In this document: positions 33,549-44,327 of the stretch, piece by piece | How positions within the stretch are numbered: the first letter of the stretch is position 1 | Layout: each line of letters begins with the position of its first letter | Origin: Candidatus Gastranaerophilales bacterium | Lineage (GTDB): Bacteria > Cyanobacteriota > Vampirovibrionia > Gastranaerophilales > Gastranaerophilaceae | Assembly: GCA_944325085.1 (NCBI GenBank) | Contig: CALUYT010000043.1 | Coordinates: 1-48,521 of the forward strand | Reading direction: 5' to 3' | Length of the DNA stretch: 48,521 bases | Notes under the pieces: model-generated | The model's database searches: none | What the model saw: only the letters and a program-made list of their open reading frames with translations | What the model was told of the DNA's origin: nothing | Program-made: the position numbers and the translations under genes

Positions 33549-34604
33549 ATGGAAAATACGAGTTTAAATGAGAAGATTAACGAATTAGTCGTTAAAATGG
33601 CTAAAGAGCCTAATAATATAGAAAATTATCATCAATTGTCAGAATTGTATATGCAAAAACAAGATTATGACAAGGTTATGTCTGTGTTAGATAGTTTATT
33701 GGCTATCAAACCGGATGATGTTCAAGCTCTTGTTGGTATGGGAACCATGTGGTTCTATGAAAGAGATTTTAGAAAGTCTTTATCATATTATAATAAAGCT
33801 TTGGAAGTTAATCCTAAAAATTTCTTGATTTATTATAATATTGGTAATGTTTTCGCCGAATGGAAGAATTTTTCAAAAGCTTTATTTTATTATAACAGAG
33901 CTATTGATTTGAATTCTGTTAACCCGGAAATTTACAATGCTATTGCTCTTTTGTATCAAGATATAGAAGATTATGTTGAAGCAAAAGCATATTATGAAAA
34001 GGCTTTATCTTTAGACCCTGAAAATGTTAATGCATTGATTGATATGGGTAATGTTTGTTTCAAATTGTTTGATTATGAAACAGCTTTAAAATTATTTAAA
34101 AAAGTTTTTGTTTTAAATCCTGACAATGAGTTGATTGCAGTTTGTATAGCTAATGCTTTAACTCTTATGAAGGATAAAAAGCAAGCTTATGCTTATTATG
34201 ATAAAGCTTTATCTATGACTGATGATAAGTATAAGATTTATATTTGTTATGCAATTTCTCTTACTGAATTTAAAGAGTATGAATTAGCAGAAAAAATGTA
34301 CAAGACAGCTATTGAATTTGATCCTAAATCTTCTAATGCTTATATTTTGTTGGCTAATTTGTATTCAAGTTCTAATAGAGTTAAAGAAGCTATTGATTTA
34401 TATAAAAAATCTTTACAAGTTGCGCCTAATAATCCTGAAACTTATATGTTGTTAGGTAATGCTCATTATCTTGATAATGATATTGAGCAGGCAATTGCTT
34501 CTTATAGAGCGTCAATAAGCATTGCTCCTGATAATGATGAATATAGACTAATTTATAGCCAAATTGTAGATGATTACGTTAGGTCTGTTCGCGGAGAAAA
34601 ATAA
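33549..34604 (+). CDS. Tetratricopeptide repeat protein, 351 aa
   Basis: About nine TPR repeats fill the protein from residue 18 to 345, with the W/L-G-Y-A-F-P spacing (for example YYNKALEVNPKNFLIYYNIG and AYYEKALSLDPENVNALIDM). There is no signal peptide or membrane helix, so it is a cytosolic adaptor. No Shine-Dalgarno is seen; its promoter's -10 ends 6 nt before the ATG. The stop overlaps the start of the Tic20-like gene by 1 bp (TAATG), so the two are translationally coupled and may act together, for example at the membrane. Confidence 0.9.
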   Translation: MENTSLNEKINELVVKMAKEPNNIENYHQLSELYMQKQDYDKVMSVLDSLLAIKPDDVQALVGMGTMWFYERDFRKSLSYYNKALEVNPKNFLIYYNIGNVFAEWKNFSKALFYYNRAIDLNSVNPEIYNAIALLYQDIEDYVEAKAYYEKALSLDPENVNALIDMGNVCFKLFDYETALKLFKKVFVLNPDNELIAVCIANALTLMKDKKQAYAYYDKALSMTDDKYKIYICYAISLTEFKEYELAEKMYKTAIEFDPKSSNAYILLANLYSSSNRVKEAIDLYKKSLQVAPNNPETYMLLGNAHYLDNDIEQAIASYRASISIAPDNDEYRLIYSQIVDDYVRSVRGEK

Positions 34605-35008
34605 TGTCAAAGAGTTCTGTCGTATTCTTCGATAGATTAGTTTCTTGTATTTCTTATTTGACTGCCGGTTGGGGTGGTTTGATTTATTGCGTTATTTTAT
34701 ATTTTAGAAAGCGTAAACCTTCTCATTTTCTTAGATTTAATGTATTTCAGTCTATTTTTGTATCTTTATTGTTTTTTGTTTTATCAATGGGGTTGGGGCT
34801 TATTTTAGAGTTTTTATCATATATTCCTTTTATAAACGCTTTGGTTGCTCAAATTTCTTATATTTTTAATAAACCTTTGTTTTTTGAGTATTCATTTGTA
34901 CAATTATTAGTTTTGGGTTTATTCGTTTATATGGCGCTATTCTCACTTTTTGGGAAATATCCTAGAGTTTATTGGATTTCTAAAATTATTGATAACGCAG
35001 CTTCTTAA
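34604..35008 (+). CDS. Tic20/Ycf60-like membrane protein
   Basis: A 134-aa protein with four hydrophobic segments (about 12-30, 45-68, 72-88, 98-115). Two blocks recall the cyanobacterial/plastid Tic20-Ycf60 family: SHFLRFNVFQSIFVSLLFF (about 40-58; the family has ISHFIRFNTMQA...) and GKYPRVYWISKIIDNAA near the C-terminus (the family has GKYAEIPIISDA). Tic20 is a component of the plastid inner-envelope import channel; in bacteria the role is unknown. The resemblance is by eye and only moderate in the rest of the protein. It is coupled to the TPR gene by a TAATG overlap. Confidence 0.6.
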   Translation: MSKSSVVFFDRLVSCISYLTAGWGGLIYCVILYFRKRKPSHFLRFNVFQSIFVSLLFFVLSMGLGLILEFLSYIPFINALVAQISYIFNKPLFFEYSFVQLLVLGLFVYMALFSLFGKYPRVYWISKIIDNAAS

Positions 35009-36088: not shown

Positions 36089-36121
36089 GAAGACACCTGA
36101 TTATTGGGTGTCTTCTTTTTT
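36089..36121 (+). terminator. rpsG terminator
   Basis: 9-bp perfect stem GAAGACACC / GGTGTCTTC with a loop of about 9 nt and six T. Its right arm also encodes the C-terminus of the convergent HCP-like gene. Confidence 0.9.
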
Positions 36122-37723
36122 GCGTATGTTTGATAGGTCGGAAGTTATATCGGTTATTTCTTTGATTTTGTATTCTTTGCTTAGAGTTTTTGATACTGCA
36201 GGATTAATCAGCGTTGCAGGACATTTTGTCAGGTACACATTTTGAGCTTTATGTTCTTTTAAGTTGATAATATTTGCGATTGTCATAACATCGCAGGTCG
36301 TAAAGTAAAATACTATTTTATCATTTGATATTGGAAATTCTTGGAATAATTTATGGATTAAATATGTTGCAAGTGGTATGTAATTTCCAATAGGTATTGT
36401 TAAGACATTTTCTTTTTCGCTTTTGTATGAAAAACTTATTACATATTCATCTTTTTTAAGGTGTGTAAATAGTTCTTCAAAGTATTCTTTTTCTAATTGT
36501 TTTTGCGCATCTATGCCTATTATATATAATTTACTTATTGTATTTTCTTTAAGTTTTTTTATAATTTCGATAAACTTTTCATTTATAAGTTTTTCGTTGT
36601 AGCCAAGTGGAGTATCTTCTTTTATTTTCCCTTTTGAAAAGCCTTTTGCATTGAGTGCTGAGTTTATCAATTCAGAATAATCATCATTTTCAATTTTTAT
36701 TACTCCGTTTGGTACTATAAAATCATTTGAAAATAATCTTCCTCTATATAGATATTCGGTATTATTTTTCGAGTTTTTAGTTAGTAATATTGCACCCGGG
36801 AATGTTGCAAAATCAAGAATACAGTTTTCTGTCAGGTCTCCGTAGTGACCGATTAAGTGTTTATAGTTGTGAAATTTTTTCAGAGCGTGAGTTATTAATA
36901 AATTAGAATGTGTATAGATATCTATACCTTTATCTTTTGTTTGTTCCAGAATATTTAACAGGTCAAAAAAATTATTCCCAGAAACTAGTATAGCTTTTCC
37001 ACTTTTTGTTGAGTGCGAAACTTTTACATCAAAAATGCCATCAAAGGATTTTAGTAATAATTCACTTATTTTTATTTGTAAATTTGTGTTGTGTTCAGCT
37101 AACTTGGTAATTTGGTTTCGAATATTTTTTATTGATATTTTCTTATGATTAAACATATCTAAGGTCTCAAGTATATCGTGGTATATGTTTTCATCAAAAG
37201 CATTAAAATCGGCTAATTTTGCGAGATTTAAGCTTAGGCTTTTTATTATTATTTGCAAAATTACTCTGTAATTTTTTTCTTCTAAGGTTAATTTTTTATA
37301 TTTTTCAAGGAATATCTTTTCTCCAAGTGTTATAGCTTGAGAAAGAGATGTGTTTTCTTTAAAATTCTGAAATTTTTTTATATCATTTACTGGTATATTT
37401 TCTTTTTTACATATTGATTGATATGTGTTTTGGGTGTCATTTAGCAAGTAGTATTCTTTTAGAATTATTGAATATAGTTGCTTTTCGCTAAATTCGTTTA
37501 CAGAAACAAGACTTGCCAGTATATTTATAATTTCAAATTTTATGGTTTCATTATTACCGCCAAGCTTTTCAAGTTGTAGTATATAGTGGGCAAGTTGACG
37601 CAAAAAAAGCATTGCAACTTCTTGCAATGATGATATTGTTGGGGATATTGAACATGATCCTCTTGATATACATTCGTTGATATCTTGGTATGAGCTTTTA
37701 TATTCATTATTGCTGTTAGACAT
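36101..37723 (-). CDS. Hybrid-cluster protein (prismane) homologue lacking the cluster ligands
   Basis: A 540-aa member of the HCP/CODH superfamily by order of motifs: an N-terminal Cys pair (C18, C24, ISRGSC), EQTKDKGIDIYTHSNLL, HNYKHLIGHYGD, FPGAILLTKN, YRGRLFSNDFIVPNG and the C-terminal FYFTTCDVMTIANIINL and PAVSKTLSKEYKIKEIT. In known HCPs the 4Fe-2S-2O cluster is held by His244, Glu268, Cys312 and later Cys/Glu residues. Here the equivalents seem to be N250, N274 and S318 (same spacings, 24 and 44), and the later GGCDG, CGKYRF, QCND and SWYEQ motifs are not cysteine-containing. So it should not make the hybrid cluster. It lies 4 nt after a glutaredoxin gene, probably the same operon. Confident in homology, not in role. 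Confidence 0.8.
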   Translation of the reverse strand: MSNSNNEYKSSYQDINECISRGSCSISPTISSLQEVAMLFLRQLAHYILQLEKLGGNNETIKFEIINILASLVSVNEFSEKQLYSIILKEYYLLNDTQNTYQSICKKENIPVNDIKKFQNFKENTSLSQAITLGEKIFLEKYKKLTLEEKNYRVILQIIIKSLSLNLAKLADFNAFDENIYHDILETLDMFNHKKISIKNIRNQITKLAEHNTNLQIKISELLLKSFDGIFDVKVSHSTKSGKAILVSGNNFFDLLNILEQTKDKGIDIYTHSNLLITHALKKFHNYKHLIGHYGDLTENCILDFATFPGAILLTKNSKNNTEYLYRGRLFSNDFIVPNGVIKIENDDYSELINSALNAKGFSKGKIKEDTPLGYNEKLINEKFIEIIKKLKENTISKLYIIGIDAQKQLEKEYFEELFTHLKKDEYVISFSYKSEKENVLTIPIGNYIPLATYLIHKLFQEFPISNDKIVFYFTTCDVMTIANIINLKEHKAQNVYLTKCPATLINPAVSKTLSKEYKIKEITDITSDLSNIRKKEDTQ

Positions 37724-37727
37724 ATTA

Positions 37728-37967
37728 TTAATCCTTATTATAATTTTCTAAATATTTTAAAATTTCATCAGATTCATAAATCTTTTCGTTTGTATCTTCG
37801 TTATATAAAAACGGAACTTGGTCTTTTCCGCCTATTGATAATAATCTGAGTACATTATCATCATTGCTTGTATCAATGGTGTTATATTTGATTTTTTTAT
37901 TTTTGGATAAGTATTGTAAAACCTTTTGACAATATGGGCAGGTGTCAAGTATAAATAGATCTAACAT
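37728..37967 (-). CDS. Glutaredoxin-like protein
   Basis: A 79-aa thioredoxin-fold protein with the CPYC redox site (C10-C13 in LDTCPYCQKV) and cis-Pro region QVPFLY (about 49-54), and a C-terminal helix DEILKYLENY. It could reduce disulfides or glutathione-type mixed disulfides. The ATG at 37967 with AAGGAG is chosen. It ends 4 nt before the HCP-like gene, so the two are co-transcribed. Confidence 0.9.
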   Translation of the reverse strand: MLDLFILDTCPYCQKVLQYLSKNKKIKYNTIDTSNDDNVLRLLSIGGKDQVPFLYNEDTNEKIYESDEILKYLENYNKD

Positions 37968-40703: not shown

Positions 40704-42788
40704 ATGGGAATGGCAGCATCACAAGCTAGATTATTAACAATCACTGCTCGTTTGGCTGATAATGAGTTGAGATCTCAAACCATTAATAATGCAAAAATGC
40801 GTTTGGCAACTCAAAGCTCTCAAGCTAGTGAAAATTATATCAATGCTCTAAATGATGCAGCTTTGAAATTCTCTAATTATGATGAAGCTGGTAACGAACA
40901 AAGTCAATTGTTAACTTTCAATTCATTAATGGCTTATAGTTCTTATAATACACAATATGGTTTAGTAAATTCTTCAGGTCAACTTTTGGTAAGTGAAGCT
41001 GAAGCAAAAATGTTTGAAGATTCAAAAGGCAACTTAAATGCTTATTTAAAAGCTCATGGTTTGGAATATACAACTACTTATTTCGATCAAATAGGTACAT
41101 ATGAAAATGCTAAATATCCTGAACCATTCAATTCTATTGAAGCAGAAACCTTGAAATCTTATTACGAACAATATAATTCATATCAAAATTCAACAGAAGT
41201 TGAACAATATAAAAATAACTATTCTGTTTTTGACAATGCAAACAAAGAGTTAATTAATGCATCAAAACAAGCTATAACAAATTATTTATTATGCAATAAT
41301 AACTCTCCTAAAATTTATGTAGATTCATCATCTAAGGAAACTATAATAAATATAACAAATGCTTCTGCCCAAGGCATTATCTCTGATATGAAAAATGCCT
41401 TTACAGGGTCTAATAATAATACATATAATATAGAAAACTTGAAAAATAATAAATTTATATCTCAAGAAATATATGATGAAATAGTTAATGAGCTTAACTC
41501 TTACCAAAATTGGTCAGGTCAACTTCCTAATTCAGGTGACTCTACTTATTATTCAGGTGTTATATATAAAGCTGAATCATCATTTTCTTATGATGCTAAT
41601 AATAAAAAATACACTATTGACGATTTAACAATTAGTGTTGATGATGCAGGTAATGTTACTGAAATCAAGGGTGCAGAAACTGTAACAGAAGATGATATTA
41701 CTTATACTTATTCATATCCTGCAGTAGATGGTACTGTATCATTAAAAGATTTTCTAAATGGCTTATCATATTGTGCATCTTCAAAAGATGAAAGTGGTAA
41801 TGATGTAAAATATTATTATCAATATTCAGCAACTACAGCTCCTGATGGATCAGTTGCAGGTGCTAATTTGGGTATGATATTAACAAATCCTAATGATGTT
41901 AAAACTGAGATGAATTCTTTAGCTGAAGCCATTGTTGAATTTATTAAGTCAGAAGCTAACTATGAAAACTTTGCTGATTTCTTATTAACAACAGATCCAA
42001 ATGATTTGAAAAATACTTATGGTATAGATGTAAATGCTAATATTGGAACATCTAATAAAACATTGAATAGTTATTTGCAAGAATATAAGGATGCAAAATC
42101 AATATTCTTAGATAATATATTTGATGCTTCTTCAATAGCTACTGTTGAACAAGATTTGAAAGATGGAGCTCAATTTACAAATGCAGATGGTGAAACATTT
42201 GTAGTTACACCTGAAAATTTAACTGATATTGACTTTGTGTTGCAGTATATCAAGGTTAAAGGTTTAAAACAATCTGAAAGCTTTAATACTGTAATTAAAG
42301 AATATTTAGTTGAAGATATGATAGCTAATTATGGTGAGCCAAAATATGCTTGGGTTGATGAAAATGATACAAGCAATAAAGGTAATGCTGATGCTAAAGC
42401 TCAATGGTACACTAATTTATTCAATAGAATGTTAAAAGGCTATAAAGCATTAGAAAATGGTTTAGCATCTTCTGCTGAATGGATTGAATACGCATTAGAA
42501 AATGGCATAATTTCAATGGAACAAGTTGATAAATCTTATAACTGGGATGGTTTAGATTATAAATCTTGTACAAAAATTACCGAAGAAACTGTTCAAGATG
42601 CAGTTACAAAGGCTGAAGCTGAATACAATAGAGCAATGAATGATATTGAAGCAAAAGACAATATCTATGATGTTGAATTGAAAAATATTGATACAGAACA
42701 TACATCACTTCAAACTGAGTATGAATCAATAAAAAGTGTAATAAGCAAAAATATTGAAAGAACATTTAAATTTAATCAAAGTGCATAA
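40704..42788 (+). CDS. Large lineage-specific protein with coiled-coil ends, 694 aa
   Basis: No function recognised. The N-terminus (about 1-60, MGMAASQARLLTITARLADN and QTINNAKMRLATQSSQASEN) is a conserved-looking helix block; the C-terminus (about 605-690, TKAEAEYNRAMNDIEAKDN and ESIKSVISKNIERTFKFN) is a coiled coil. The centre (about 65-590) is Asn/Ser/Thr/Tyr-rich with beta-type segments, for example around 280-340. Helices at both ends flanking a variable middle are reminiscent of flagellin- or hook-type proteins, but no sequence match is claimed. There is no signal peptide. AAAGGA precedes the ATG. It is monocistronic and its AT-rich coding style matches its neighbours. Confidence 0.8.
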   Translation: MGMAASQARLLTITARLADNELRSQTINNAKMRLATQSSQASENYINALNDAALKFSNYDEAGNEQSQLLTFNSLMAYSSYNTQYGLVNSSGQLLVSEAEAKMFEDSKGNLNAYLKAHGLEYTTTYFDQIGTYENAKYPEPFNSIEAETLKSYYEQYNSYQNSTEVEQYKNNYSVFDNANKELINASKQAITNYLLCNNNSPKIYVDSSSKETIINITNASAQGIISDMKNAFTGSNNNTYNIENLKNNKFISQEIYDEIVNELNSYQNWSGQLPNSGDSTYYSGVIYKAESSFSYDANNKKYTIDDLTISVDDAGNVTEIKGAETVTEDDITYTYSYPAVDGTVSLKDFLNGLSYCASSKDESGNDVKYYYQYSATTAPDGSVAGANLGMILTNPNDVKTEMNSLAEAIVEFIKSEANYENFADFLLTTDPNDLKNTYGIDVNANIGTSNKTLNSYLQEYKDAKSIFLDNIFDASSIATVEQDLKDGAQFTNADGETFVVTPENLTDIDFVLQYIKVKGLKQSESFNTVIKEYLVEDMIANYGEPKYAWVDENDTSNKGNADAKAQWYTNLFNRMLKGYKALENGLASSAEWIEYALENGIISMEQVDKSYNWDGLDYKSCTKITEETVQDAVTKAEAEYNRAMNDIEAKDNIYDVELKNIDTEHTSLQTEYESIKSVISKNIERTFKFNQSA

Positions 42789-42917
42789 TATCAGTGCTTT
42801 TAGGTAAATAATTATTAATCCTGATATATTGTTTCTTGTAATTTATATTTGATTATATACAATTATTATAATGGCACTAACGAATATAAATTATTAGGAA
42901 GGGGTATTAGGGATTCG

Positions 42918-44327
42918 ATGATTAAACTGGATTTCAAAAATGCTGACGTGACTGTTGTTGGACAAGAGCATGGGCTTAATATTTTAGAAGAATTTGCACA
43001 ATATAAAGATAGAATTGCTCAGATAATTGCAGATTTGAATAAAAGAAAAGATAAGCCGGGACAGTGGCTTCAGTGGATGAATCTAGGTTATAACGAAGAA
43101 ACTGTATGGTATGTAAAAGAGTATGCATCTATTGTTAGAGGAAGATTTGATAATATCTTAGTTTTAGGTATTGGAGGTTCAGCGCTAGGCGGACTTGCAG
43201 TTACTGAAGCATTATTAAAACCATACTGGAATTTATTAACCCCTGAACAAAGAGATAATTTCCCAAGAATATTTTTCTTAGATAATATTGACCCTGATTC
43301 AATGAATTCATTGTTAAATTTTTTGGATTTAAAAAGAACGTTGGTCAATGTTATTACAAAATCTGGCTCTACTGCTGAGACTATGTCTCAATTTATGATA
43401 GTAAAAGATAGATTAGAAAAAGAACTTGGAGAAGATGAATATAGAAAAAATGTTGTAGCGACAACTGATAAACAAACAGGAGTTTTAAGACAGATTGCAG
43501 AGCAAGAAGGTTATAAAACTTTTGTTGTTCCGGATGATGTTGGCGGAAGATTTTCCGTTTTCTCAGCAGTTGGTTTATTACCTTTTGCACTTGTAGGTAT
43601 TGATATCGATGAAATCATGAACGGTATTAAGGATATGGACTTGGCATTAAAAAATACTGATATTCATGAAAATATAGCTGCGCAGGGTGCTTTAATTCAA
43701 TACCTTATGGATGTTAAAAAAGGTAAGGATTTATCAGTAATGATGCCTTATTCAAGCAGATTAAAATACATATCTGATTGGTATGTGCAATTATGGGCTG
43801 AATCCTTAGGTAAAGATACAGATAAAGATGGTAATCATATTCATATAGGACCAACTCCAATAAAGGCTTTAGGTGCTACAGATCAACATTCCCAAATTCA
43901 ATTGTATAATGAAGGTCCGAATAACAAGATTATAACTTTTATAAGGGTTGAGGAATTTGATACAACATTAGAAATACCTCCAATATTTGAATATACAGGT
44001 ATTGGTTATTTGGGCGGAAAGACTATAAATGATTTATTAAATGCTGAAGCTGATTCTACAAGAGTTTCTCTATCTGATTATGCAAGACCTACAGTTACAA
44101 TTTCTATACCTAAAGTAGATGGGTATAATGTAGCTCAGTTATTGTATATGTTAGAAGTTCAAACTGCTATTGCAGGAGAATTATATAATATTGATGCCTT
44201 TAATCAACCTGGAGTCGAACAGGCTAAAAATTATACTTATGCTTTGATGGGTAGAGCAGGTTATGAAGATTCTGCAAGAATTTTGCAGTCAAAAATTTCA
44301 TTATCAAATCAAAATTTTAATAATTAA
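42918..44327 (+). CDS. pgi: Glucose-6-phosphate isomerase
   Basis: Interconverts glucose-6-phosphate and fructose-6-phosphate in glycolysis and gluconeogenesis. It is a 469-aa sugar isomerase with the SIS-domain motifs GIGGSALGG, TKSGSTAETMSQF, GGRFSVFSAVG, the TDQHSQIQLYNEGP region and a C-terminal VAQLLYMLEVQTAIAGELY. The ATG at 42918 with AGGG upstream is chosen; a TTG 69 nt earlier is rejected. It lies 17 nt upstream of a secreted-protein gene and may share its transcript with that gene and trxB. Confidence 0.95.
   Translation: MIKLDFKNADVTVVGQEHGLNILEEFAQYKDRIAQIIADLNKRKDKPGQWLQWMNLGYNEETVWYVKEYASIVRGRFDNILVLGIGGSALGGLAVTEALLKPYWNLLTPEQRDNFPRIFFLDNIDPDSMNSLLNFLDLKRTLVNVITKSGSTAETMSQFMIVKDRLEKELGEDEYRKNVVATTDKQTGVLRQIAEQEGYKTFVVPDDVGGRFSVFSAVGLLPFALVGIDIDEIMNGIKDMDLALKNTDIHENIAAQGALIQYLMDVKKGKDLSVMMPYSSRLKYISDWYVQLWAESLGKDTDKDGNHIHIGPTPIKALGATDQHSQIQLYNEGPNNKIITFIRVEEFDTTLEIPPIFEYTGIGYLGGKTINDLLNAEADSTRVSLSDYARPTVTISIPKVDGYNVAQLLYMLEVQTAIAGELYNIDAFNQPGVEQAKNYTYALMGRAGYEDSARILQSKISLSNQNFNN

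Follow-up and report, generated by a model that had tools for sequence, protein, structure and literature searches.

A hybrid cluster protein homologue without hybrid-cluster ligands, encoded beside a glutaredoxin in Gastranaerophilales

The window analysed here, a 48,521-nt contig of a Candidatus Gastranaerophilales bacterium (CALUYT010000043.1, assembly GCA_944325085.1), encodes a 540-aa protein that has the complete fold of hybrid cluster protein (HCP) and has lost all seven ligands of the hybrid Fe-S-O cluster. The function of HCP, a matter of long-standing debate, depends on this unique cluster. The hosts of the protein described here are gut bacteria, non-photosynthetic relatives of cyanobacteria. 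We use the label pHCP for an HCP-fold protein without hybrid-cluster ligands. Taken together, the data make pHCP look like an enzyme that was remade for a different job, probably a redox one. Our preferred reading, held with moderate confidence, is that pHCP is a repurposed class I HCP that carries a four-cysteine, probably [4Fe-4S], site in place of the hybrid cluster and does redox or thiol work linked to glutaredoxin (Grx). Text searches of a literature library found no paper on HCP in Melainabacteria or Gastranaerophilales, nor on HCP pseudoenzymes.

Results

The grx-pHCP locus

The pHCP gene is the second of a pair whose first gene encodes a 79-aa dithiol Grx with a CPYC motif (Table 1). 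The 4-nt gap between the two genes was noted correctly in a preliminary description of the window, and the coupling is kept in 79 of 80 related loci, which were drawn from GTDB contigs, many of them labelled Candidatus Gastranaerophilales or Melainabacteria. The pair is flanked by a divergent wecB gene and a convergent rpsL-rpsG pair; among the 80 loci, rpsG lies nearby in 71 and wecB in 70. An alignment-based scan of genome contigs returned 295 loci, and a scan with the single protein gave no match.

Some other genes of the window recur near the locus. A small protein with a weak, below-cut-off match to TIC20, a chloroplast import family (E = 3e-4), is found near the locus in 20 relatives. 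The window also encodes two large proteins; the first begins with MGMAASQARLL, and its type recurs beside the locus in 21 related loci.

Table 1. Positions of the features discussed in the text
Feature	Position	Strand	Remarks
pHCP ORF, 540 aa	36101..37723	-	HCP fold, hybrid-cluster ligands absent; ORF, profile, alignment and structure evidence
Grx, 79 aa, dithiol, CPYC	37728..37967	-	First gene of pair; profile match
Grx CPYC motif	37929-37940	-	
Cys18 codon	37670..37672	-	Cubane ligand kept; aligned to Cys15 of D. vulgaris HCP
Cys24 codon	37652..37654	-	Cubane ligand kept; aligned to Cys21 of D. vulgaris HCP
Cys105 codon	37409-37411	-	Cys in 123/142 pHCPs
N250	36974..36976	-	In place of hybrid-cluster His; alignment
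N274	36902..36904	-	In place of hybrid-cluster Glu; alignment
Cys301 codon	36821-36823	-	Cys in 71/142 pHCPs
S318	36770..36772	-	In place of hybrid-cluster Cys; alignment
D405	36509..36511	-	In place of persulfide Cys; alignment
Y433	36425..36427	-	In place of hybrid-cluster Cys; alignment
G446	36386..36388	-	At hybrid-cluster Cys position; gap in first alignment, G in wider one
Cys477 codon	36293..36295	-	New Cys; Tyr/Phe in true HCP
D478	36290..36292	-	In place of last hybrid-cluster Glu; alignment
Cys501 codon	36221..36223	-	New Cys; Thr/Ser/Asn in true HCP
Small protein, TIC20-like	34604-35008	+	Weak match
Large protein, first	40704-42788	+	
Large protein, second	42849-44327	+	

The HCP fold is complete

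The preliminary description had taken the 540-aa protein for an HCP homologue and had proposed a profile search and a structural comparison as checks; both bore it out, and neither of the contrary outcomes it had named, conserved ligands or a lack of significant similarity to HCP, was found. Against Pfam PF03063 (Prismane), pHCP scored 90 bits (E = 1.9e-25), well above the gathering cut-off of 27, and sequence searches matched solved HCPs at E = 2.4e-25 and weaker. Its scores against the NCBIfam hydroxylamine reductase models TIGR01703 (160 bits, equivalog cut-off 360.8) and NF003658 (175 bits, equivalog cut-off 367) were both less than half of the cut-offs. Judged by these sequence comparisons, homology to HCP is far above chance. 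The best PDB match of an AlphaFold2 model, built from an alignment of 79 window and locus sequences (pLDDT 87.8, pTM 0.88), was D. vulgaris HCP (1e1d; Z 31.9, rmsd 3.7, 509 residues); the top structural matches were exclusively HCPs, followed by CO dehydrogenases at Z 17 and below. The match over 509 residues indicates that the whole three-domain fold is present.

All hybrid-cluster ligands are replaced

In functional HCP, the hybrid cluster is held by seven ligands (His, Glu, four Cys and Glu), and four N-terminal Cys bind a cubane [4Fe-4S] cluster. We read the corresponding positions of pHCP from an alignment with intact HCPs from its own genus, which placed N250, N274 and S318 on the His, Glu and first Cys ligands with exactly the HCP spacings of 24 and 44 residues, just as had been proposed from the sequence. 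The later Cys ligands, likewise described as lost, are indeed gone, and so is the last Glu, with D405, Y433, G446 and D478 standing for Cys, Cys, Cys and Glu, so that the window pHCP keeps none of the seven. The last of these corresponds to Glu490 in M. thermolithotrophicus HCP (PMC10210160). An alignment artefact could be ruled out, as true HCPs from the genus can be aligned across the ligand sites and the first two spacings match exactly.

The loss extends to related genomes, as the preliminary description had suggested examining: among 142 pHCPs, 108 keep no ligand, 27 keep one and seven keep two, whereas 21 of 21 true HCPs keep all seven. Most replaced positions vary across pHCPs (S/N/G; N/D/E; S/E/A/F), the exceptions being Asp at the last Glu position (103/142) and Tyr at the third Cys position (97/142). 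Since none of the ligands remains, pHCP should be unable to carry out hybrid-cluster chemistry; the protein would no longer hold the Fe-S-O cluster and would not reduce NO or hydroxylamine by the known mechanism.

Four invariant cysteines

Two N-terminal Cys, C18 and C24, do remain, as the preliminary description had stated, but it had missed two new invariant Cys, C477 and C501, that could complete a four-thiolate site. Each of the four is invariant in 79 of 79 sequences. C18 and C24 form a CX5C motif and correspond to the third and fourth cubane Cys, which 122 of the 142 pHCPs keep; the first and second are missing in all 142. C477 and C501 are both present in 139 of the 142 proteins of this wider set. 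C477 lies immediately N-terminal to the former ligand position D478 and C501 one strand past it, and both are predicted in well-modelled loops of domain 3, where two adjacent strands, E470-474 and E495-498, end. Many pHCPs have Cys at the positions of C105 and C301 as well, so that all six Cys of the window pHCP occupy recurrent positions.

Covariation links the two ends of the protein. Of the 20 pHCPs without the C18..C24 pair, 17 have an extra Cys beside C501 (CC), compared with one of the 122 in which the pair is present. In the clade without C24, the other N-terminal Cys is kept as a single Cys and the extra one adjoins C501, a compensation that has one or two independent origins. From the aligned sequences, this replacement of C24 by a Cys beside C501 suggests one four-thiolate site. 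The sole pair-keeping pHCP with the extra Cys, L216, is closely related to two pHCPs without C24, as would be expected of an intermediate.

Under our preferred reading, C477 and C501 would have arisen in domain 3, next to the former active site, and together with the retained C18 and C24 they would most likely meet in a single four-thiolate site. This site would probably hold a reconstructed [4Fe-4S] cluster, by which the N-terminal tail would be fastened to domain 3. Three singletons (L064, L067 and L097), however, lack both C477 and C501 and yet keep C18 and C24, a pattern not accounted for by one obligate site with four ligands. Residues 1-24 are of low confidence and unplaced in the AlphaFold2 models of two homologues, the window pHCP and L183; such a modelled tail is compatible with ordering that depends on a cofactor, and equally with a mobile dithiol.

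A somewhat unlikely alternative is that no metal is bound at all. C18/C24, on a flexible tail, and C477/C501, within the core, would then each be a dithiol/disulfide pair, and the two pairs would relay electrons or oxidising equivalents between Grx and a substrate in the emptied HCP cavity. That the tail is unplaced in both models despite its strict sequence conservation would fit such a relay, as would the loss of C477 and C501 as a pair in the three singletons and the mostly dithiol nature of the partner: of 99 Grx, 83 have CPYC and six CPFC. Eight of the 99 have CPYS, which counts against such a relay, and the single N-terminal Cys combined with the extra Cys beside C501 in the clade without C24 fits a four-ligand site better.

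The link to glutaredoxin

The window Grx matched GST_N_3 (PF13417, E = 6.5e-12) and Glutaredoxin (PF00462, E = 2.3e-7; 31.3 bits against a cut-off of 22.9), with conserved CPYC motif and VP of the cis-Pro loop. The source genome also encodes a glutathione synthetase homologue. Grx is directly upstream of pHCP in 79 of the 80 closest loci that the search returned, the eightieth starting at a contig edge, and the two genes overlap or lie ≤16 nt apart in all of the 79 bar one (212 nt, truncated ORF). Counted before fragments were set aside, 93 of the 142 pHCPs have a Grx of this first type next to them and 16 a second type, with none detected beside the rest. The second, Grx3-like type is directly upstream of pHCP in the g41, g18, g32 and g8 lineages, and the wecB and rpsG neighbours were absent from the examined flanks of these loci.

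The adjacency could also be incidental, with a general cellular Grx and pHCP simply inherited as an operon at a fixed wecB - grx - pHCP - rpsG/rpsL locus. The locus is indeed conserved as a block, and the window Grx is the only PF00462 match in its genome. Moreover, six genomes (loci L191, L192, L193, L196, L197 and L199) cleanly lack pHCP between grx and rpsG with grx, wecB and rpsG/rpsL in place, and many other lineages have pHCP without an adjacent Grx, which is encoded elsewhere. The clean deletions rule out an obligate Grx partnership; conversely, G066 has pHCP with Grx missing at the locus. We nevertheless regard an incidental pairing as unlikely. In a separate clade, pHCP is directly preceded at a different locus by the second type of Grx, so that the pairing seems to have at least two origins, which speaks for a functional link. 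Together with the four invariant Cys, the two pairings also make a purely structural role, which the preliminary description had entertained, less likely.

Under the preferred reading, pHCP would thus be a redox or thiol protein that swaps electrons or thiol groups with the Grx encoded upstream, which may be its physical partner. Another neighbour was seen in genus g39, where, at locus L082, a gene for a TIGR03980 (HCP-associated redox-disulfide) protein lies 74 nt upstream of pHCP. We found no support for TIGR03980 as a specific partner: it is present in 16 of 16 genomes tested, three of them (G010, G012 and G198) without a pHCP profile match, and adjacent to pHCP in g39 alone.

The Gastranaerophilales hosts live in the gut and are generally assumed to be anaerobes. 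That the four invariant Cys instead bind Zn in a structural or regulatory scaffold, e.g. a ligand sensor on the HCP fold, is very unlikely: a Zn-Cys4 site would be compatible with them, and the variability of the old ligand positions save D478 and Y433 leaves no new catalytic set evident, but C18 and C24 descend from [4Fe-4S] ligands, Fe-S is available in presumed anaerobes and the Grx pairing points to thiol redox chemistry.

Distribution and selection

Of 191 genomes in the family, 182 (∼95%) contain a pHCP or HCP match, and 39 of 41 genera are covered; for the order, in a sample that comes mostly from the same family, the figure is 274 of 286 genomes. HCP profile scores are bimodal, and only 68 of 181 genomes have an intact HCP that scores above the NCBIfam cut-off, indicating that pHCP is near-core and the true enzyme accessory. 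No second intact hcp gene, for which the preliminary description had proposed a search, was found in the source genome of the contig (C43; 1.89 Mb, 96% complete). The pHCPs form one side of a single branch (SH-aLRT 100). Purifying selection is strong: 33 close pairs, among them a few of true HCPs with similar values, gave a mean dN/dS of 0.079. Intact ORFs, a dN/dS of 0.08 and near-universal presence rule out a decaying pseudogene.

Tandem pHCPs also occur, with two copies in G059 and three in G055 (L095, L096), and one L096 copy lacks the N-terminal Cys pair. From their sequences, such tandem copies suggest a division of labour.

Discussion

The family-wide pHCP clade has kept the HCP fold for long without the cluster, and it outnumbers the intact enzyme in its hosts. 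The capabilities of the HCP scaffold in the absence of its cluster can thereby be tested directly, and pHCP is a possible case of metal-site migration within one protein. The genomes that have lost pHCP and kept grx are natural lineages useful for comparing phenotypes. There is also a hazard for annotation, as profile searches alone could label pHCP genes as hydroxylamine reductase despite the ligand loss. A bolder version of the preferred reading, which we consider quite improbable, is that pHCP is an Fe-S-driven Grx oxidoreductase with its cubane rebuilt using two ligands from another domain, and that it became near-core while the ancestral HCP became dispensable; such an enzyme would in principle resemble ferredoxin:thioredoxin reductase.

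Comparison with known systems

Class I HCPs (D. vulgaris 1e1d/1e2u, M. thermolithotrophicus 8cnr) share with pHCP the whole three-domain fold (Z ∼31–32), the length, the order and spacing of the landmark segments and two of the four cubane Cys. In contrast to them, pHCP has none of the seven hybrid-cluster ligands, lacks the first two cubane Cys and has gained the invariant C477 and C501. Its neighbour is a Grx, whereas two intact HCPs of the order (L070 and L087) have a ferredoxin-like neighbour. The class II HCP of E. coli (7de4) has the same fold and is likewise encoded with a redox partner, but this is the reductase Hcr rather than Grx, and the hybrid-cluster ligands are absent from pHCP.

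Some hybrid-cluster ligands have also been lost in three degenerate HCPs, L069 and L078 (family f7) and L079 (family f6). These fall outside the pHCP clade and do not have C477 and C501 together, and a neighbouring Grx was not detected for any of them; their sequences may reflect independent HCP decay in the same order. Within the HCP/CODH superfamily, the type V CO dehydrogenase (CooS-V, 7b9a) sets a precedent, as it lacks both the usual active cluster and the usual activity (PMC10502027). Ch CODH-V, however, retains HCP-like hybrid-cluster ligands (PMC10502027), whereas the window pHCP retains none.
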